Below, piece after piece: positions 8,464-30,022 of a DNA stretch of 35,000 nt (the stretch's first letter is position 1; every line of letters starts with the position of its first letter). This stretch comes from Kamptonema formosum PCC 10802. GTDB lineage: Bacteria; Cyanobacteriota; Cyanobacteriia; Cyanobacteriales; Oscillatoriaceae. Location: positions 2,045,339-2,080,338 of the forward strand of contig NZ_KB235948.1 of NCBI RefSeq assembly GCF_000332335.1. Reading direction: 5' to 3'. The notes beneath the pieces are model-generated. The model saw only the letters and a program-made list of their open reading frames with translations, did no database searches and was not told the DNA's origin. The position numbers and the translations under genes are program-made.

Positions 8464-10902
8464 TCACAGCCAGTTTCCTGCCAAAATGAAAGCCGCCCAG
8501 TAATAAGGATGTCTGTAAGGATCGTCGTCATCCACGTCACGCAAGAATTTTACCTGCGCTTTTTGAAGTGCTTCCGCCTTACTCGCACCTTGCTTTAACT
8601 GGTCGTAAAACTCACCCATGAATTCAGGTGTGAAGGCATCGCTAACCTTCCACAGACTGGCCACTGTACTGCGCGTATAAGCTTTTAAGGCAACTCCAGC
8701 AATCCCCAAAGCAGCCTGCTTGTCTCCCTGGGCGGTTTCGCAAGCACTGAGAACCAGCAACTCAATCGGTTTGCGGCTACTTTGTGACCGGCTGCGGAGC
8801 AATCTATCTATTTCTCTCACTTTTATCTGGGTTTTCCAAGCGTAAATAAATGTGTCTTCGGGGTCAGAGCTGAACTGACCATGAGTGGCCAAGTGAACGA
8901 CGGGAAAAGGTGTGGCGTTGATTTTCTCCTTTAATGCGTCTTGAGTAAACTCCTGATTCAGAAGCTCTTGACTCGGGAGAATTTTTTTGATATCATAGAG
9001 TTCCTCCCTGACATAAGGTAAAGCCTGCAACTCAGAAAGAAAGCCCTCTTTTTCGCTCACACCGGCAAGCAGGACATTCAACTGTGCCGGTGGCAGCGGT
9101 TTGGGATCTGGCAGTTGCGATCCCGGACTGACCGCAATGCTATATTTCTGCACCAGATATTGGTTCCCGTCGTGGAGTACAGCCATCGGAATGCCCTGCA
9201 AGGTAGTGTCCAGCACAAATACCAATGTCCCGCTTTCTGGCAAGTCGTGTTCCGCACTCCGAATTAGCCAGTCATAGAGCTTTTGCGCGAGAGGCACAAT
9301 TGATTCCGGGTTCTCCTTGTTTGACAGCCTACCCTGCAGCTGATAGACAGTATCTGTAAACTCTATTTGAGAGACAGCAGCAGTGTAGCGGTGCAATTTT
9401 CCTGACTGGGGCAGCTTGAAAATAACTTCGAGCCGGTCTGACAAAAGGACAGGATAAATAATGGCTGCCGGTGGCTTCTCTGCCCTGTCAATGGGAACGA
9501 GATTTGGCAAATCGCACTGTAAATAATTCTCGATTTGTGCCAGCTGTAGGGTTCCAGTGACTTCCCGAGCTGTTTCAAGATTCTTTGAATTCGCACTCGC
9601 TCGATCGCTCAGGAGTAATTTCAGGTAATCTTTATAGATCCTTCCCACATCTTCTCGAACAGAGAGCTCACCATTTGGGTTGATCTGAAGTAAATCTTTG
9701 CGAACAAACTCCAGGTTTTTGACTGCTGCGCCGTAAGCCTGTATTGCGCCGTCAATATTTCCTTGTTTTTGCAAAATGAACCCTAACTGCGACTGCCACT
9801 GATAAGAAATCTCCGGTGCTTGAATCCCTTGGGCTACTACTACAGCTTTTTCGGTAAAGTTTTGAGCGCCATAAAAATCGTTGGCTCGCTCATAGAAACC
9901 GCCAAGACTGCCGAGAGCATAAGCCTCCCCTCGTTTGTTTTGCAAAAATCTTGCCTGTTGCAGCGCCTCTTCCGCATATTGAATAGCTAGGTCATTCCTT
10001 TTCATGCGGCTGAGACTTTCGGCAAAGTTCAGCTTGGCGGAAATTGCTGGCTGGGTTAGGGGAAGATTGGCAATGGCTGGCTGGTTTTGCAGCAAATCAT
10101 CCAGCTGGGATTGGATTTCCGCCTGCCAGTCGCCCGTGTTATTATTCAATTCCAGCAACAAACTAAGCCGGTTTAGTTTCGCCTGGATTTGCGTGAGTCG
10201 ATCGTCAGACAGATTGGCCGCCTGTAAATAGCAATCCAAAGCTTCTTCAGCCTTCTCTTTCGCCTCCTTTCCGGCAAAGCTTGGAAGGTTTCGTTTCAGG
10301 GTATAAAAAACTCGTTTTGTGTTGCCCAAACTGAGCTGCGCCGCACTGGTGCCGGCGGGAGAATTTAAAGCTCGGGCTATCTCCAGGCTTTGTTTTAAAG
10401 CCCCCTCAGACTTTTCTAGCTTGCCAATCACTCGCAGCACATCTCCCAGAGTCCGCAATCCAAGAGCGCTGATCGCAGCATTCGGCTGTTCTGGAATAGT
10501 TTGCTCACCCTCAGATGACGGCTCACAAATCTGGCTGTTCGCGCCGATACCCAAAGCCGGCAGCAATCTCTTGCAGGCGTGCCGGTATTGCCCCAAAGCT
10601 TGCAAAGCCAGACTCTGATTAATCAGACTCCCAGCCACACCCTCCTGATTGCCTATCCGCTCGTAAACCTCCATCGCTTCCTGCCAAATACTCAACGCTT
10701 CCTTAGGTTGTCCCATATTTAATTTATCGTGACCTCGTTGAGTCAGACATGGCGCAGCTGTTGACAAGTCATTTCCAGAACATTGCTCGCTGCTCAGCGC
10801 GCCATGCCCCCAGCTGAGCAACAGCGATATGCCGATTCCCAAAATCACATATTTCAGAAAAAATTGCACCCTGGTCAAAAATTCTAACCATTTTCTTCCC
10901 AT
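8464..10902 (-). CDS. Exported TPR-CHAT domain protein (caspase-like peptidase fold)
   Basis: The 812-residue protein has an N-terminal hydrophobic signal or anchor (about 15-35). TPR repeats fill residues about 55-400, with an ordered run of QAIxxY/EEAL-type helices. The CHAT domain fills the last 280 residues. The presumed catalytic dyad is intact: His in HLATHGQF (about H674) and Cys in LSACETAQG (about C721). CHAT proteins are clan CD peptidase relatives, and some (TPR-CHAT/Craspase) are real proteases. It is encoded 46 bp downstream of the haemagglutinin-like gene on the same strand. That pairing is often seen in cyanobacteria and suggests processing or control of the exoprotein outside the cytoplasm; the role is inference. 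Confidence 0.9.
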   Translation of the reverse strand: MGRKWLEFLTRVQFFLKYVILGIGISLLLSWGHGALSSEQCSGNDLSTAAPCLTQRGHDKLNMGQPKEALSIWQEAMEVYERIGNQEGVAGSLINQSLALQALGQYRHACKRLLPALGIGANSQICEPSSEGEQTIPEQPNAAISALGLRTLGDVLRVIGKLEKSEGALKQSLEIARALNSPAGTSAAQLSLGNTKRVFYTLKRNLPSFAGKEAKEKAEEALDCYLQAANLSDDRLTQIQAKLNRLSLLLELNNNTGDWQAEIQSQLDDLLQNQPAIANLPLTQPAISAKLNFAESLSRMKRNDLAIQYAEEALQQARFLQNKRGEAYALGSLGGFYERANDFYGAQNFTEKAVVVAQGIQAPEISYQWQSQLGFILQKQGNIDGAIQAYGAAVKNLEFVRKDLLQINPNGELSVREDVGRIYKDYLKLLLSDRASANSKNLETAREVTGTLQLAQIENYLQCDLPNLVPIDRAEKPPAAIIYPVLLSDRLEVIFKLPQSGKLHRYTAAVSQIEFTDTVYQLQGRLSNKENPESIVPLAQKLYDWLIRSAEHDLPESGTLVFVLDTTLQGIPMAVLHDGNQYLVQKYSIAVSPGSQLPDPKPLPPAQLNVLLAGVSEKEGFLSELQALPYVREELYDIKKILPSQELLNQEFTQDALKEKINATPFPVVHLATHGQFSSDPEDTFIYAWKTQIKVREIDRLLRSRSQSSRKPIELLVLSACETAQGDKQAALGIAGVALKAYTRSTVASLWKVSDAFTPEFMGEFYDQLKQGASKAEALQKAQVKFLRDVDDDDPYRHPYYWAAFILAGNWL

Positions 10903-24623: not shown

Positions 24624-24671
24624 GCAATCAAGGCGTAGGACCGGCCTCCCGCCTGTCCCCAAAAGGTATAA

Positions 24672-25310
24672 TCAACCGGCCAAAACCGGCATGCGGACTC
24701 GGTTGACGAAGTTGGCCAGGATTTGCAGGCCGGTGGTGGAGGATTTTTCTGGGTGGAACTGGACGGCCATCAGGTTGTCGCGGGCGATGGCAGCGGTTAC
24801 GGTTTGGCTGCCGTGGGTGACAGTGGCGGCGCGAACTTCGGGGTTAATCGGGTCTACGTAGTAGGAATGGACGAAATACACCCAGGGAGTTGGGGGTAAA
24901 TCCCCCCACAGGGGGATGTCGGGCTGGGTGAAGTCCAGCCGGTTCCATCCCATGTGGGGAATGGTGAGTCCGGGTTCGGGTTTGAACCGGCGCACCGCAC
25001 CGGCAATCACGCCCAAACCCGGTTCGCTGCCTTCTTCGCTGCTGTCAAAGAGGATTTGCAAGCCGAGGCAGATGCCGAGAAAGGGTTTCCCGGATGCGAT
25101 CGCTTCTTTGACGGGTTCGATTAAGTTGCGCTCGCGCAGGTGTTGCATTGCGGGGTCAAAGGCTCCCACTCCCGGCAAAACTACGGCATCCGCCTGGTGG
25201 ATTTCCGCCGGCACGTCTGTTATTTTTGGCGTCGCACCGGCATTCTCCAATCCTTTGCAGACGGAGTGCAGGTTGCCCATATCGTAATCTACTATTGCGA
25301 TGGTTGGCAC
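24672..25310 (-). CDS. hisH: Imidazole glycerol phosphate synthase glutaminase subunit HisH
   Basis: The 212-residue class I glutamine amidotransferase has the HisH start (IAIVDYDMGNLHSV). Its catalytic triad is complete: Cys81 in GICLGLQ, and His186 and Glu188 in QFHPEKS. It releases ammonia from glutamine for HisF in histidine synthesis and acts in the cytoplasm. The gene is complete; hisF is not in the window. The neighbours rsmD and petG form an arrangement also found in other cyanobacteria. Confidence 0.96.
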   Translation of the reverse strand: MPTIAIVDYDMGNLHSVCKGLENAGATPKITDVPAEIHQADAVVLPGVGAFDPAMQHLRERNLIEPVKEAIASGKPFLGICLGLQILFDSSEEGSEPGLGVIAGAVRRFKPEPGLTIPHMGWNRLDFTQPDIPLWGDLPPTPWVYFVHSYYVDPINPEVRAATVTHGSQTVTAAIARDNLMAVQFHPEKSSTTGLQILANFVNRVRMPVLAG

Positions 25311-25715
25311 TGGTTTGCTCTCTCTCCCTTGAAGTTTTTGCTATTTTGTTTTATTATTACATATGGGGGGTTGCATATTCCTCGTTCCCAGCCTCAGGCT
25401 GGGAAGGCTCGCCGGGAGGCTCCGCCTCCTCCCACCGTATTGCTAGGTTCCTGGCTCTAGTTCCTGCGGCAAACGAAGCGTGCCGGTGGGCTAAGAGGAG
25501 AGGGGAACTGTCAAAACATGCGCGTTTTAAAATTGTTTTTGTTCTGGCTGGGTTGCTAGGTTCCGGGCGATTGGAAATCGCGGCTATACAAACGAAGCCC
25601 GCCTTCGCGGGCTAATACAAGAGCGATACTCTCAAAAATTGCGCGGATTTTTCCTCGTTTTACTCGTTCCCAGCCTCAGGCTGGGAACGCCTATTTGGAG
25701 GCTCTGCCTCCCTCT
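25311..25715. repeat. Repeat-filled non-coding stretch upstream of hisH
   Basis: Copies of CTCGTTCCCAGCCTCAGGCT (hairpin AGCCT-AGGCT) lie at about 25380 and 25664. Each is followed by a GGAGGCT(C/T)(C/T)GCCTCC palindrome. A CCTGGCTCTAGTTCCTGC copy is at 25449, and a CGATTGGAAATCGCGG copy with AAGCCCGCC is at about 25565-25613. I see no credible gene. Confidence 0.7.
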
Positions 25716-25841
25716 ATGGAATTTCTTGAGCGATATCCCACCGGCAAGGAGTATAAACTCAATGAATTCGCCTATAATATTATCATGGAGTTGGCGGCTT
25801 GTAAAGCACCGGTTGCCAGCTTGGCGCACCGGTGGGGCTAA
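25716..25841 (+). CDS. Possible 41-residue ORF or gene remnant
   Basis: The ATG at 25716 opens a 41-codon frame (MEFLERYPTGKEYKLNEF... to SLAHRWG) ending at TAA 25841. The residue composition looks protein-like, unlike the neighbouring repeats, and the local sequence is more A/T-rich. There is no good ribosome binding site and the stop lies inside a GGGCTAAAGCCC repeat. It may be the front of a lost gene or chance. Confidence 0.2.
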   Translation: MEFLERYPTGKEYKLNEFAYNIIMELAACKAPVASLAHRWG

Positions 25842-25912
25842 AGCCCAACTACAAACGGTAGGGCATTAGCCCAACTAGAAACGGTGGGGCATTAGCCCAA
25901 CTAGAAACGGTT
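25836..25912. repeat. Three units of GGGC(T/A)(A/T)(A/T)AGCCCAACTA
   Basis: Units at about 25836, 25861 and 25887 have the palindrome GGGCTAAAGCCC or GGGCATTAGCCC, followed by AACTA(C/G)AAACGGT. Same family as at 15.84 kb. Downstream, at about 26043-26086, is a short GTGCCGGTGGG repeat. Confidence 0.85.
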
Positions 25913-26124
25913 TTTTGGAGGGGGAAAGGCACGGGAGACGGGTTTTGTCTGATCAGTTGCGGTTTCAATTGCCGGTGTTTGTTAATTAAGGGAGTGGTGG
26001 GTTGGAAAAGGCTCGGTTGGGGATTGCGGGGAGGGGTTTGGGTGCCGGTGGGAGTGCCGGTGGGGTGCCGGTGGGGCGGTTGCTGGATTCCTAGTTGGGT
26101 GACAAAAGGCGTTTGTACCCAAGG

Positions 26125-26361
26125 ATGGAGTTCGGAGCTCGAACGATGGACCTCGGAGCTCGACTGATGGACCTCGGAGCTCGACTGATGGACCTCGGAG
26201 CTCGACTGATGGACCTCGGAGCTCGACTGATGGACCTCGGAGCTCGAACGATGGACCTCGGAGCTCGAACGATGGAGCTCAGAGCTCGAACGATGGAGCT
26301 CAGAGCTCGAATGATGGAGCTCAGAGCTCGAATGATGGAGCTCAGAGATCGAACATTGAAC
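26125..26361. repeat. 21-bp minisatellite, 11 units, containing GAGCTC
   Basis: Eleven head-to-tail 21-bp units vary on the theme GGAGCTCGACTGATGGACCTC. As 21 is divisible by three, frames on both strands are open: one plus frame reads a heptapeptide such as MDLGARL or MELRARM, and one minus frame reads RAPRSIS. A 100-codon plus frame (26095-26397) starts with TTG and has no ribosome binding site. I therefore list the DNA as a repeat and not as a gene. Confidence 0.85.
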
Positions 26362-26387
26362 TTCACCGGCACGATTGGCGCACGGGT

Positions 26388-26466
26388 GGGGCATTAGCCC
26401 AACTACGAACCGGTGGGGCATTAGCCCAACTACGAACCGGTAGGGCATTAGCCCAACTACAAACCT
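26388..26466. repeat. Three units of GGGCATTAGCCCAACTACGA
   Basis: Units follow at 26-28-bp spacing, each with the palindrome GGGCATTAGCCC and separated by ACCGGT. It is another cluster of the family seen at 15.84 and 25.84 kb. The 257 bases between this array and the first CRISPR-like repeat (26467-26723) hold no convincing gene and could include a leader. Confidence 0.85.
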
Positions 26467-26845
26467 GTGTGCCGGCATGGTTGACCGACTGGCACGCGCC
26501 TTGGGCCAGCAGGCTGCCGGCATTTTTTGTTTCGGCTGTTCTTCTGCGAGGGGGCCGGCAAAATCGTGAAAAGCTGATTCTGTCGCAGATCCCCTCGCTC
26601 TCGCTCCTGAAGCGGGTTTCAGCGATTTCGGAGGGGGCTGGAGCGAGTTTTGTTAGTACAAACTCAGCCCCCCCCGCAAACCGCCTCTAGACAGCCGGTG
26701 CTGTAAGGGTGTAAGATGGAGGGGTCGCTTCCCTTCGGGGAAGTGGAATTAATTGAAACATCGTACAGATTTTACTCGACGTTAAGCTTTTTGTGTCGCT
26801 TCCCTTCGGGGGAGTGGAATTAATGGAAAGATTTCACCACCAAAG

Positions 26846-27316
26846 GTGTTTACTAGATTGGCTGACGAAATTGTTGAGAGAATAGGTATGGAAGCCGGAC
26901 AACCTAAAGCTAGAGCAATTGTAGTTTATGGAGTACAACATACTGTATGGACTAAAGATAGACCAGGACATCGGTGGATAGGGGAAACTGTTCAGGTTAG
27001 GTTTAACTATATTACTGTTCAAGGCGTAAAACGATTTGGAGCTGAGATGCTTCTACCCACAGCTGTAATATTAACAGGATTTCATCCCCTAGGTCTAGTA
27101 GGCAACCAGTATCTTGGGGCAGTCAAAAAAGATGAAAATAGAGAATTTAAAATTTATACATGCAATCCCAAACCAGATGTGCCAGCTCTCTATTATTCAT
27201 CTGAGCGCACAAAATCTGTTGTCCTCTTTGATTTAAGTATGACAGAAGGAGAAATGTTAGAATGGTTGTATCCAAATGAGAGCAATCCGGAACCACCAAA
27301 GCTACCCAGAATATAA
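26846..27316 (+). CDS. Uncharacterised protein between CRISPR-like repeats 2 and 3
   Basis: The 156-codon frame starts with GTG, 15 bases after repeat 2. There is no Shine-Dalgarno sequence, and the frame is open back through the repeat to a stop at 26783. The original 5' end may therefore have been lost when it was joined to the repeat. The product is soluble and mixed alpha/beta (VYGVQHTVWTKDRPG, VQVRFNYITVQGV, KIYTCNPKPDVPALYYS), with a Pro-rich end. I do not recognise a family. The gene is visibly richer in A/T than the surrounding chromosome, especially at 27120-27180, which suggests transfer. No attC-like sequence follows it. Confidence 0.6.
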   Translation: MFTRLADEIVERIGMEAGQPKARAIVVYGVQHTVWTKDRPGHRWIGETVQVRFNYITVQGVKRFGAEMLLPTAVILTGFHPLGLVGNQYLGAVKKDENREFKIYTCNPKPDVPALYYSSERTKSVVLFDLSMTEGEMLEWLYPNESNPEPPKLPRI

Positions 27317-27480
27317 ACTACTGTTGGTTACTGATATAGGTTCAATACCCATCGCTGGCGCAGTGCTGAGTCGCTTCCCTTCGGGGGAGTGGAATTAATG
27401 GAAACACTGCGAGACAGGGTTTCAATTCTGTCAGCTGCTCGACAGTCGCTTCCTTTCGGGGAAGTAGAATTAATAGAAAC

Positions 27481-27580
27481 CGAACGTGTGGCATTCCCAG
27501 TTCCATTTGAGTTTTGGGGTTACGGTGCCTTGTTTGAGTTCAGTGTGTCGCGTTGGTTGCCCCTTAACAGGGCGTTAGCA
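27481..27580 (+). other. Truncated integron attC site of the Vibrio (VCR) type
   Basis: The sequence right after CRISPR-like repeat 4 resembles the V. cholerae integron repeat as I remember it, in the same order and spacing. It has AACGTGTGGCATTCCCAGT (VCR: AACGCGTGGCGTTTCCAGT), then CCATTTGAG, then TTGTTTGAGTTCAGTGT, then GCGTTG, GCCCCTTA and GGGCGTTA. The core GTTAGCA is at 27574-27580, and the GNAT gene begins 14 bases later, as in a cassette. About 24 bp of the left arm, including the inverse core, is missing and is replaced by the CRISPR-like repeat. The alignment is from memory and should be confirmed by a search. Confidence 0.7.
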
Positions 27581-27593
27581 GTTGGGAAAAAAC

Positions 27594-28118
27594 ATGAACA
27601 TTAGAGAATCAATAATTTCTGATTTAGGCGCTATTCATGCCTCGCACAAGAACGCATTTGGTGAGCCCGAAGGCCCTATTGTTGCTCAACTTGCTTGTGA
27701 CATATTGAAAGATGAATCAGCGCAGCCATTGCTCTCGCTGGTTGTAGAACAACAAGATGAAATTGTAGGTCACGTTATTTTCAGTTCATTGAAAATCGAA
27801 GGGGTTGAACACCTATCTGTCTATATCCTTGCGCCCCTAGCTGTGTCTAAAAACTTTCAACGACAGGGCTTAGGGACTCAACTCATCACTCATGGCTTAA
27901 ATATCCTAAAATCGCAGGGAGTTGATGCAGTCTTTGTATATGGATCCCCAAGTTATTACGGACGTATAGGGTTCAAATTAGGCCATTCTATTGCCGCCCC
28001 ATACGAACTTGAGTATCCAGAAGCGTGGATGGCATTGGAGTTAAAGCAGGGCTGTTTATTAAAGGTTCAAGGTTTAGCGAAGTGTTGTGACTCATTAATG
28101 TCGCCAGAATATTGGTAA
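27594..28118 (+). CDS. GNAT-family N-acetyltransferase (integron-cassette gene)
   Basis: I choose the ATG at 27594 (MNIRESIISDLGAIHASHK); an in-frame TTG lies four codons upstream. The 174-residue protein has the GNAT fold. A beta-strand LSLVVEQQDEIVGHVIFS is followed by LAPLAVSKNFQRQGLGTQLI, which carries the acetyl-CoA loop (QRQGLG). Then comes FVYGSPSYYGRIGF, typical of the YhbS-like group (COG3153). The enzyme transfers an acetyl group from acetyl-CoA to an unknown small molecule or protein. The gene sits directly behind a VCR-type attC remnant, and its stop is two bases before CRISPR-like repeat 5. Acetyltransferases are frequent integron cassettes, so transfer from a gammaproteobacterial integron is likely. 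Confidence 0.9.
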   Translation: MNIRESIISDLGAIHASHKNAFGEPEGPIVAQLACDILKDESAQPLLSLVVEQQDEIVGHVIFSSLKIEGVEHLSVYILAPLAVSKNFQRQGLGTQLITHGLNILKSQGVDAVFVYGSPSYYGRIGFKLGHSIAAPYELEYPEAWMALELKQGCLLKVQGLAKCCDSLMSPEYW

Positions 28119-28151
28119 AAGTCGCTTCTCTTGGGGGAAGTGGAATTAATG

Positions 28152-28460
28152 GAAACCCGGTTTCTTGCCCCCCGCCGAACCCCAGAAACCGGGTTTCTGC
28201 GACAGCATTGGCATCTAACCCGAAATCTTGATTGAGAAACCCGGTTTCTTGCCCCCCGCCGAACCCCAGAAACCGGGTTTCTGCGACAGCATTGGCATCT
28301 AACCCGAAATCTTGATTGAGAAACCCGGTTTCTTGCCCCCCGCCGAACCCCAGAAACCGGGTTTCTGCGACAGCATTGGCATCTAACCCGAAATCTTGAT
28401 TCAGAAACCCGGTTTCTCTATCCTCGCCCGAAGCCAGAAAGAAACCCGGTTTCTTTATGC
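28152..28460. repeat. 84-bp tandem repeat, three units and a partial fourth
   Basis: Units begin at 28152, 28236, 28320 and 28404 with exact 84-bp spacing. Each has GAAACCCGGTTTCTTG, a C-rich stretch, AGAAACCGGGTTTCTGCG and CATCTAACCCGAAATC. The first unit shares its GAAAC with the end of the last CRISPR-like repeat. A minus frame is open through the array (28-residue period) but is only a consequence of the unit length. Confidence 0.9.
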
Positions 28461-28539
28461 CACACCCCATCCCTTACTTGTGCGAATCATTTAGACGCGC
28501 TACTATTATTAACCGAAAATCTCAAAAAAAAGAACCACT

Positions 28540-29592
28540 GTGATAGAAAAGAAAAACTTTTTTTTGCGCAACGTGTGGTATTATGCCCTACCGGCTGGCT
28601 ACCTCAAACCAGGAACGATGGTGGCAAAAACCTTTCTCGGCGAACCCATACTCTTAGCCCGCAGTGGCAGCGGCGAAGTATTTGCCCTGCGCGATATCTG
28701 CCCGCATCGGGGCATCCCACTCAGTTGTGGGCGCTTCGATGGAAACGAAGTCGAATGCTGTTACCACGGTTGGCGCTTTGACACTAGCGGGCGCTGCACG
28801 GCTATTCCCTCCCTCGTGGAAGGGCAAACGCTGGACTTCAGTCGCTTGCGCGTCATGCAATATCCCGTTCGCGAAGTTCAGGGAAATATTTGGATTTACA
28901 TGGCAGAAGGCAATTCAGCCCAAACCGAACCGCCCGCAATGGAAATCCCAACGGTTCCGTATTTTAAAGATAAACCCTATCAGTTGGTAGAGGTGATGCG
29001 GTTTCCGTGCTTTCTGGATCATGCTGTCGTGGGTTTGATGGACCCGGCGCATTCGCCTTTCGTACATCGCGCTTGGTGGTGGCGTTCCGGTGGGAAATAT
29101 TTTGAGGAAGTCAAGCAGTTTGTCCCCTCGCCATACGGGTTTACAATGCAGCGGCAAAAGCTGGAAAATATGGGTTACGGTTATTGGCTGATTGGCGGGG
29201 TGCCCGAAGTAGAAATATCGTTTCGCCTGCCCGGAGTTCGCATCGAAACGATTACGACAAGCGCCCACGCAATTTGCAATTTGACGGCGGTGACGCCGAT
29301 TTCGGAAACGGAAACAGAAGTCACGTTTCTAGGTTATTGGACAGTGCCGTGGATAACAGCGCTCGCGCCTTTCTTACAGCCGTTCGCGCGAGCTTTTCTC
29401 AATCAAGATCGCGAGGTTGTCATCAAGCAGCAGCTGGGTTTGCAATACAATCCCACTTTGATGTTAATCGACGATGCCGACGTGCAAGCTCGCTGGTATT
29501 ATCAGTTGAAGGCGGAATTTGCCCGCGCTGCGGCGGAGGGGCGCTCTTTTGTAAATCCGGTGAAAGAACGGGTGCTGCGCTGGCGTGCTTGA
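28540..29592 (+). CDS. Rieske [2Fe-2S] ring-hydroxylating oxygenase, large subunit type
   Basis: The 350-residue protein starts with GTG. The Rieske domain has CPH (54-56) and CCYHGW (73-78), giving the Cys/His/Cys/His ligands of the 2Fe-2S cluster. The catalytic domain has DPAHSPFVH (168-176), with two histidines expected to bind mononuclear iron. Size and order match the pheophorbide a/vanillate-type oxygenases. These need a reductase, which is not encoded nearby. The substrate cannot be read from the sequence; pigments, aromatics or lipids are possible. It is flanked on both sides by direct copies of an 84-bp repeat, so its presence here may be recent. Confidence 0.9.
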   Translation: MIEKKNFFLRNVWYYALPAGYLKPGTMVAKTFLGEPILLARSGSGEVFALRDICPHRGIPLSCGRFDGNEVECCYHGWRFDTSGRCTAIPSLVEGQTLDFSRLRVMQYPVREVQGNIWIYMAEGNSAQTEPPAMEIPTVPYFKDKPYQLVEVMRFPCFLDHAVVGLMDPAHSPFVHRAWWWRSGGKYFEEVKQFVPSPYGFTMQRQKLENMGYGYWLIGGVPEVEISFRLPGVRIETITTSAHAICNLTAVTPISETETEVTFLGYWTVPWITALAPFLQPFARAFLNQDREVVIKQQLGLQYNPTLMLIDDADVQARWYYQLKAEFARAAAEGRSFVNPVKERVLRWRA

Positions 29593-29600
29593 CGAATCCA

Positions 29601-29745
29601 GAAACCCGGTTTCTTTCCCCCCGCCGAAAGCTAGAAACCCCAGAAACCGGCTTTCTGAGACAGCCTTGGCATCTAACCCGAAATCCTGATTCAGAAACCC
29701 GGTTTCTTGCCCCCCGCCGAAAGCTAGAAACCGGGTTTCTGAGAT
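29601..29745. repeat. 84-bp-family repeat, second cluster
   Basis: The cluster starts with GAAACCCGGTTTCTTTCC, a C-rich stretch and AGCTAGAAACC, then GCATCTAACCCGAAATC and a second GAAACCCGGTTTCTTG. It is in the same orientation as the cluster at 28152-28460, on the other side of the Rieske gene. Confidence 0.85.
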
Positions 29746-29832
29746 AGCCTCGGCGAAAGTGTGGCAGTCGCCGCTACTTGCGATCGCAGATTGCAGATTG
29801 AGCCGGTCGGAGTCATCTGCAATCTCCTCTGG

Positions 29833-29870
29833 CACCCGGCACCGGCACCGGCACCGGCACCGGCACCCGG
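29833..29870. repeat. CACCGG hexanucleotide run
   Basis: Five to six direct CACCGG units between two CACCCGG copies. No gene is seen in 29746-30155. Confidence 0.8.
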
Positions 29871-29885
29871 CGCGATCTCAGGGGC

Positions 29886-29914
29886 TTGACATCAGGCAAA
29901 GGAAGTGATATAAT
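29886..29914 (+). promoter_or_regulatory. Consensus sigma-70-type promoter
   Basis: TTGACA (29886-29891) and TATAAT (29909-29914) both match the consensus exactly and are spaced by 17 bases. Transcription would begin near 29921, leaving a leader of about 235 bases before the pyroglutamyl-peptidase-like gene. Confidence 0.7.
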
Positions 29915-29963
29915 ATTTTGCAAATTTTAACAAGGCACTGATTGCCAGGGATTTCCCGGCAGA

Positions 29964-30022
29964 AGGGGCGGGTTTATCCAACCTATCTGCGGGTGGCAAA
30001 GGATATCTGTAAACCCGCCCCT
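29964..30022. repeat. Inverted repeat in the leader (AGGGGCGGGTTTA)
   Basis: AGGGGCGGGTTTA at 29964-29976 pairs exactly with TAAACCCGCCCCT at 30010-30022. It could fold in the transcript from the promoter at 29886. A relative, TAAACCCGCCCCT, is at 34833-34845, so it is also a dispersed repeat. Confidence 0.7.

Follow-up and report, generated by a model that had tools for sequence, protein, structure and literature searches.

Two oversized inserts of foreign composition, possibly captured mobile DNA, in a cyanobacterial CRISPR array

The array, its leader, and related type III-B loci

The window considered here is a stretch of 35,000 nt (G000:C3:2045339-2080338) from a cyanobacterial genome of 8.59 Mb in nine contigs. 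Within it lie five copies of a repeat of the form GTCGCTTCCCTTCGGGGGAGTGGAATTAATGGAAAC, R1 to R5, which enclose two short spacers and two far longer segments termed insert 1 and insert 2 (Table 1). Herein, the repeat length is constant at 36 nt, and the segments between the repeats measure, in order, 35, 539, 39, and 640 nt, which gives two normal start-to-start intervals of 71 and 75 nt and two oversized ones of 575 and 676 nt. Each segment starts directly 3' of a repeat and stops directly 5' of the next GTCGC, the sole blemish at these edges being the last base of R2 (G for C). The two normal spacers have no match in plasmids—the only set searched with them, the 39-nt spacer with the query 27407-27445.

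Table 1. Features of the array locus, in window coordinates
Feature	Position	Strand	Basis
CRISPR leader, ~155 nt; no counterpart in the sister genome	26569..26723	+	leader-end alignment by eye
Promoter-like site TAGACA-18-TAAGAT, leader end	26688..26717	+	promoter scan
CRISPR repeat R1	26724..26759	+	repeat pattern search, alignment
Spacer, normal length, 35 nt	26760..26794	+	no plasmid match
CRISPR repeat R2, last base G for C	26795..26830	+	repeat alignment
Insert 1, 539 nt, 40% GC; 3' part of a gene and 53 nt past its stop	26831..27369	+	relatives search
CRISPR repeat R3	27370..27405	+	repeat alignment
Spacer, normal length, 39 nt	27406..27444	+	no plasmid match
CRISPR repeat R4, diverged	27445..27480	+	repeat alignment
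Insert 2, 640 nt, 44% GC; one integron cassette unit lacking the left arm of its attC	27481..28120	+	nhmmer, covariance model, geometry
Truncated VCR-type attC, ends in core GTTAGCA; lacks first 26 bases including R''	27483..27580	+	blastn, nhmmer, covariance model
GNAT N-acetyltransferase gene, intact frame, 174 aa	27594..28118	+	Pfam GNAT models
CRISPR repeat R5, diverged; continues into AGAAACCCGGTTTCT-type repeats	28121..28156	+	repeat alignment

Judged by its repeats and leader, the five-repeat locus is a CRISPR array of the type III-B repeat family because the leader end is common to related arrays and those arrays adjoin type III-B genes. Hence, the CRISPR-type repeats of which the earlier note had spoken are borne out. 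At up to three mismatches, the window's repeat is found in 10 of 388 genomes of the order, its own included, and in genome G019, arrays of the same family flank a group of Cas10b, Cmr3, Cmr4, Cmr6, and Csx1-type genes to the left and right, which constitute a III-B system. The leader end (TAGACA...TAAGATGGAGGG) recurs in diverged form 5' of arrays with similar repeats in other genomes of the order; this comparison comprises seven other leaders from six genomes, aligned by eye and without statistics, and the two leaders of G019 fit worse. A resemblance of the window leader to that of a related array in the same genome (local similarity score 30, reached by 2 of 2000 simple shuffles) is suggestive only.

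The genome's own III-B locus lies about 240 kb from the window array. It contains Cas10b, Cmr3, a Cmr4/Csm3-like frame, Cmr6, and Csx1 and adjoins an array whose repeat has its last 14 bases, GAATTAATGGAAAC, in common with that of the window. The view that the genome contains no III-B effector, which arose from a query with the Cas10b of G019, was rejected, as a different Cas10b and Cmr genes are located near 1.82 Mb. No cas1 gene occurs within the window, and three cas1 loci exceed the cut-off elsewhere in the genome. One of them, beside the III-B array, matches the profiles only from position ~91-97 and is devoid of ~90 N-terminal positions; of the other two, one is a Cas1d next to Cas10d (type I-D) and one a fusion of Cas4 and Cas1.

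Further repetitive DNA environs the array. A 21-nt tandem repeat (ACCTCGGAGCTCGAACGATGG) occupies 26129-26338, 5' of the leader. Part of it has 12 loose matches on the minus strand of the genome's own III-B locus (L054, ~8900-9400), where repeat-coded residues sit on the N-terminal side of the truncated cas1. On the other flank, AGAAACCCGGTTTCT inverted-repeat units, partly 84 nt apart, follow R5 (28152-28457) and reappear at 29600-29744, 3' of a Rieske-domain gene (28540-29592). Units similar to the AGAAACCCGGTTTCT type are also located at the end of the contig from a sister genome described below. The Rfam search of 26400-28500 returned one match only, under the gathering score, on the repeats adjoining the array.

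The two inserts

For the DNA following R4, the earlier note had proposed the remnant of a VCR-type attC site that lacks its left part, and blastn, nhmmer, and a covariance model all support this assignment. The best blastn match of insert 2 in plasmids is a Shewanella integron plasmid (66 bases, 80.6%, E 8e-6), where the match ends 21 bases 5' of aac(6')-IIa, a gene of a cassette array with qacEdelta1 and sul1 after it. With 27482-27600 as query, 76 plasmid records were obtained at E ≤10, including 39 from Vibrio, 18 from Pseudomonas, and 6 from Shewanella; some of the 76 look like chance matches, for example, one in Enterococcus polA. In six integron stretches from Vibrio, Shewanella, Photobacterium, and Pseudomonas, nhmmer found 88 matches to 27482-27593 at E ≤1 (84 of them at E <0.1), and 85 of the 88 alignments begin at query base 2-4, that is, at 27483-27485. 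The integron matches are preceded by 26 bases (TAACAAA... in most sites) that are missing from the window, as can be appreciated from 30 matches printed with 45 upstream bases and 84 printed as whole sites.

A VCR-type covariance model built from 26 of these 84 sites, with the window excluded, matches 27465-27580 with 40.9 bits (E 2.2e-8), so that the covariance check put forward with the attC claim also came out in its favor. At default filters, this is the sole match in the window up to E 5; with the filters off, the next best in 26400-28600 reaches 7.8 bits (E 0.31). Left of 27483 lies repeat DNA, on which most of the model's left arm aligns with mismatches or gaps, and the attC is therefore truncated. 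Its R' core and inner helix are present. The textbook R' core reads GTTRRRY, and the core GTTAGCA of the window shows one departure from RRRY. The R'' box and the left arm that pairs with the right arm are absent, with repeat DNA in their place. Because R'' and the left arm are gone, the attC cannot be called a working site, and the term integron cassette is valid for the origin of insert 2, not for a functioning site.

The attC remnant is followed by the GNAT gene (PF00583, 3e-10). Its existence and its stop 2 bases 5' of R5 are as the earlier note had it, and the spacing is corrected from 14 to 13 bases between the 7-base core (27574-27580) and the ATG, which lies 20 bases after the G of GTTA. 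Similar distances are found in cassette arrays: 34 of 51 annotated gene ends in Vibrio and Shewanella arrays are at most 20 bases from the next site (in 15 of the 34, the stop codon is the TAA of TAAC), and 26 of 46 gene starts in two Vibrio arrays stand 19-40 bases from the core G. The remaining distances are large, some since a site was outside the set used. Insert 2 accordingly sets in at approximately base 27 of one attC and ends close to where the next would begin, and the cassette geometry agrees with the earlier proposal of a segment reaching from inside one attC to the beginning of another. By this geometry, it reads as one cassette unit minus about 24-26 nt of the attC arm. A circular cassette that was opened and trimmed in the attC arm would fit, as would a fragment cut at two neighboring sites. 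Both ends fall in the same attC arm; for a random fragment, this is estimated to happen with a chance of ~8% (~1 in 13), and the in-phase ends are therefore suggestive only.

Insertion by an integron integrase is the least probable of the explanations considered. Insert 2 is a cassette by sequence, as this route would demand. IntI, however, leaves the gene first and the whole attC after it, within a split target, whereas here a cut attC lies 5' of the gene, and the repeats on either side are complete; integrase insertion is thus contradicted by the joints. Moreover, no integron integrase of the genome exceeds the TIGR02249 cut-off, the one weak match scoring 24.1 bits (cut-off 265), and weak matches occur in all 14 control genomes too. 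Searches for intI and further attC sites, which the earlier note had named as a check, thus yielded neither: the covariance search, made for VCR-type sites only, detected no second one in the 8.59-Mb genome at E ≤10 (150 of 1572 first-look candidates scored). With no integrase over the cut-off and no second VCR-type site, the judgment of the earlier note stands: insert 2 is not an ordinary spacer, nor is it a normal integron insertion. Across the phylum, a VCR-type site at E ≤0.001 was found in 1 of 386 sampled genomes, namely this one, and in 0 of the 385 others, under stricter filters and with nine candidates per genome scored for the 21 that are listed.

A comparison of the GNAT gene with Vibrio or Shewanella-type integrons was a further check named in the earlier note. 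Across the six integron stretches, its protein has weak matches (the best with E 4e-5 and 31% over 68 aa), and the best relative found is encoded on a Pseudanabaena galeata plasmid (48%, aligned residues 1-174), where none of the 12 annotated features nearby is an integrase. In total, 97 plasmid records match the protein, all with <60% identity. Relatives are present in 35 of 60 genomes including its own, the strongest beyond the window's gene being 41-44% identical; the second, distant relative in the same genome has 43%. A tree of the window's protein and 17 hand-picked relatives gives no clear donor.

Insert 1 (26831-27369), on which this finding of the earlier note is silent, is oversized in the same way as insert 2. 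Its ORF is listed from a GTG at 26846-27316, and the frame is open from the first base of the insert. Relatives occur in 6 of 60 genomes including its own, the other five in open frames of 659-918 aa, and in both genomic relatives printed, the match is near the C-terminal end. Among plasmids, the protein matches four records, all cyanobacterial; in the three examined, the match is likewise near the gene end, and the gene is large in two of them. The relative from Synechocystis sp. B12 is annotated with 212 aa; hence, a short form exists. In an Anabaena plasmid member of 884 aa, residues 39-765 match PHROG 34895; insert 1 lacks this region, and in phages it has neither a protein nor a DNA match. 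It is therefore improbable that insert 1 contains a complete gene, a point against a purpose-built cassette system and in favor of the capture of fragments. A relative of insert 1 is carried by plasmid pCYAN10605.01, which also bears a III-B CRISPR locus with Cas10, Cmr3, Cmr4, a further RAMP gene, cas1, cas2, and an array of 45 regularly spaced repeats, unlike the window's in sequence, with 44 intervals of 70-84 nt.

Both inserts are oriented in the leader direction. The promoter-like site at the leader end is the only sigma-70-like call in 26500-28600, which is weak evidence as shuffles average 2.7 calls; comparable hexamers stand at the same place in several related leaders. No terminator-like site was called in 26500-28600. 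Given the promoter-like leader end and the lack of a terminator-like call, transcription into the GNAT gene is possible, and the leader promoter may drive its reading. The GNAT frame is intact despite the divergence of R4 and R5. Neither the promoter-like site nor the intact frame proves present use.

Interval lengths, the sister locus, and the origin of the inserts

The other arrays read in the genome comprise 440 intervals of 67-85 nt, 422 of them in two large arrays and 18 in the III-B array (L054), the latter including the same spacers repeated on either side of gaps. Arrays with the window's repeat in other genomes add 55 intervals, listed or fetched, of 68-93 nt. Outside the window array, the room for a spacer is thus ~31-57 nt, and segments of 539 and 640 nt are beyond the usual spacer length. 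Among the arrays read, oversized slots are particular to the window array. Two sets of candidates were discarded. Apparent gaps of 567-899 nt, seen in the arrays of four other genomes, involve chance matches of a loose 14-nt pattern, as the full repeats printed reveal, and gaps in L073 obtained with the same pattern were left out of the counts. All six longer intervals in the genome's own arrays cross runs of N and were rejected as oversized slots. These arrays (L054 5256-7039, L071, L053) are broken by 100-N gaps, and in L054, spacer starts recur on either side of the gaps, which looks like assembly duplication.

The runs of N inside other CRISPR arrays of this genome raise the thought of an assembly artefact at the repeats of the window, which we consider very unlikely. 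There is no N in 25800-30000, and two inserts of different origins stand between copies of the same repeat, so that a contaminant would have to share this repeat.

By composition, both inserts are foreign, with 40% and 44% GC vs 54%; in 640-nt windows moved in steps of 100, <46% GC is reached only for starts 26601-27601. A near source was found for neither of them. The search covered plasmids for insert 2 (as DNA and as GNAT protein), genome contigs (close-relative method) and viral contigs for the GNAT protein, and plasmids, phages, and viral contigs for insert 1. Relatives of the inserts exist only at the attC or protein level; with no protospacer source molecule found, no protospacer motif is readable.

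In the sister genome of the same genus (G002), the neighborhood is common to both (92.5% identity over 24628-25475). The sister locus (L022 9940-10140) consists of two repeats around a different spacer of 34 nt, without a leader and without inserts; the right flank is comparable only in part as the contig ends ~630 bases beyond. Since the leader end is common to other arrays, its absence in G002 is most simply read as a loss. For the inserts, the foreign composition favors a gain in the window genome, with a single sister compared. A sister without the leader and with another spacer means that the locus rearranges or turns over.

Capture of mobile-DNA pieces as oversized spacers by Cas1-type integration is ranked first, with what we judge to be an even chance, because all joints are at repeat edges, the repeats are whole, and normal spacers lie between. 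All four insert joints coincide with repeat edges, a complete repeat stands on each side, and the other slots hold the 35- and 39-nt spacers. Capture is also favored by the shared leader end, the foreign composition, the attC identity and its uniqueness, the plasmid relatives of insert 1, the insert-free sister locus, the three cas1 loci, and the Sulfolobus precedent discussed below. Herein, a III-B-family array with a leader would have taken in several hundred bases of foreign DNA at two separate slots. Insert 1 would stem from the 3' part of a gene whose family occurs both on plasmids and in chromosomes of cyanobacteria, and insert 2 from a Vibrio/Shewanella-type cassette opened in the attC left arm, either as a circle or within an array of cassettes. 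The joining would be the work of an adaptation machine—one of the three genomic cas1 loci or one since lost—acting on untrimmed DNA. Against capture stand the normally narrow length of spacers, the lack of a source molecule among the searches made, the N-terminally truncated cas1 at the array with the most similar repeat, and the position of both ends of insert 2 in the same attC arm, as estimated above for a random fragment.

Second in rank, and unlikely in our estimate, is the healing of a double-strand break, perhaps one made during spacer integration, with foreign fragments that possibly replaced several repeat-spacer units. That the locus rearranges is seen from the sister, which has lost its leader. 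In length, insert 1 comes close to seven units and a spacer, although unit lengths are too variable to tell. For Sulfolobus, it has been suggested that structural changes may accompany Cas1-facilitated cleavage and repair, and an 899-bp fragment there is noted to equal 13 repeats and 14 spacers in approximate size (PMC4390879). Repair, however, would be expected to leave joints anywhere, whereas four of four coincide with a repeat edge, the final base of R2 being the only one that may have changed.

Ranked third, and likewise improbable, is homologous recombination, in which repeat-gene-repeat units formed elsewhere, in another array or on a III-B plasmid, would have entered via the repeats. 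Plasmid pCYAN10605.01 combines a relative of insert 1 with a III-B locus, but its repeat differs, and all its 44 intervals are of normal length. No other copy of the window's repeat is present in the genome at up to three mismatches (30-base pattern), and the first joining event would merely be displaced. Capture as oversized spacers is retained as the leading explanation, with break repair and repeat recombination as serious competitors.

Comparison with known systems

An integron cassette is present here in a genome in which no integron was found, and the locus suggests that CRISPR arrays may occasionally acquire whole genes. Two oversized, repeat-flanked inserts in a single array, one of them with an intact gene whose integron origin is recognizable, make whole-gene capture by the adaptation machinery directly testable. 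A bolder proposal is that the array works like an integron, with untrimmed, gene-sized mobile DNA occasionally inserted at repeats by the adaptation machinery, read through from the leader promoter, and kept where the genes, such as this GNAT, are useful. This we hold to be quite unlikely; if true, CRISPR arrays would constitute a second, integrase-free route of gene capture.

With the cassettes of Vibrio and Shewanella, insert 2 has in common the attC from base 27 to the core GTTA, a gene that begins 20 bases from the core G, and a stop where the next attC could start. It differs from these integrons by the missing R'' and left arm, the lack of an integrase over the cut-off and of a second VCR-type site, and the CRISPR repeats on its flanks. 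The array, in turn, resembles cyanobacterial type III-B (Cmr) arrays in its 36-nt repeat ending in GGAATTAATGGAAAC, its leader end, and its 35- and 39-nt spacers. Unlike them, it has five repeats only, no cas1 in the window, and two oversized slots.

A literature search for long spacers, which covered few subscription papers and is weak in this respect, found no papers on them. Spacer length is narrowly held, and ruler mechanisms have been proposed; an 899-bp fragment that partly matches a conjugative plasmid of the pNOB8-like kind is described from CRISPR locus F of Sulfolobus solfataricus, where it lies between two repeats (PMC4390879). Locus F and the window array both carry a long piece of mobile DNA between two CRISPR repeats. 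The former is archaeal and leaderless and has one insert, whereas the window array has two inserts, a leader, normal spacers, and a cassette with an intact gene. In light of this 899-bp precedent, the window array is to be seen as a rare variant and not as a new category.
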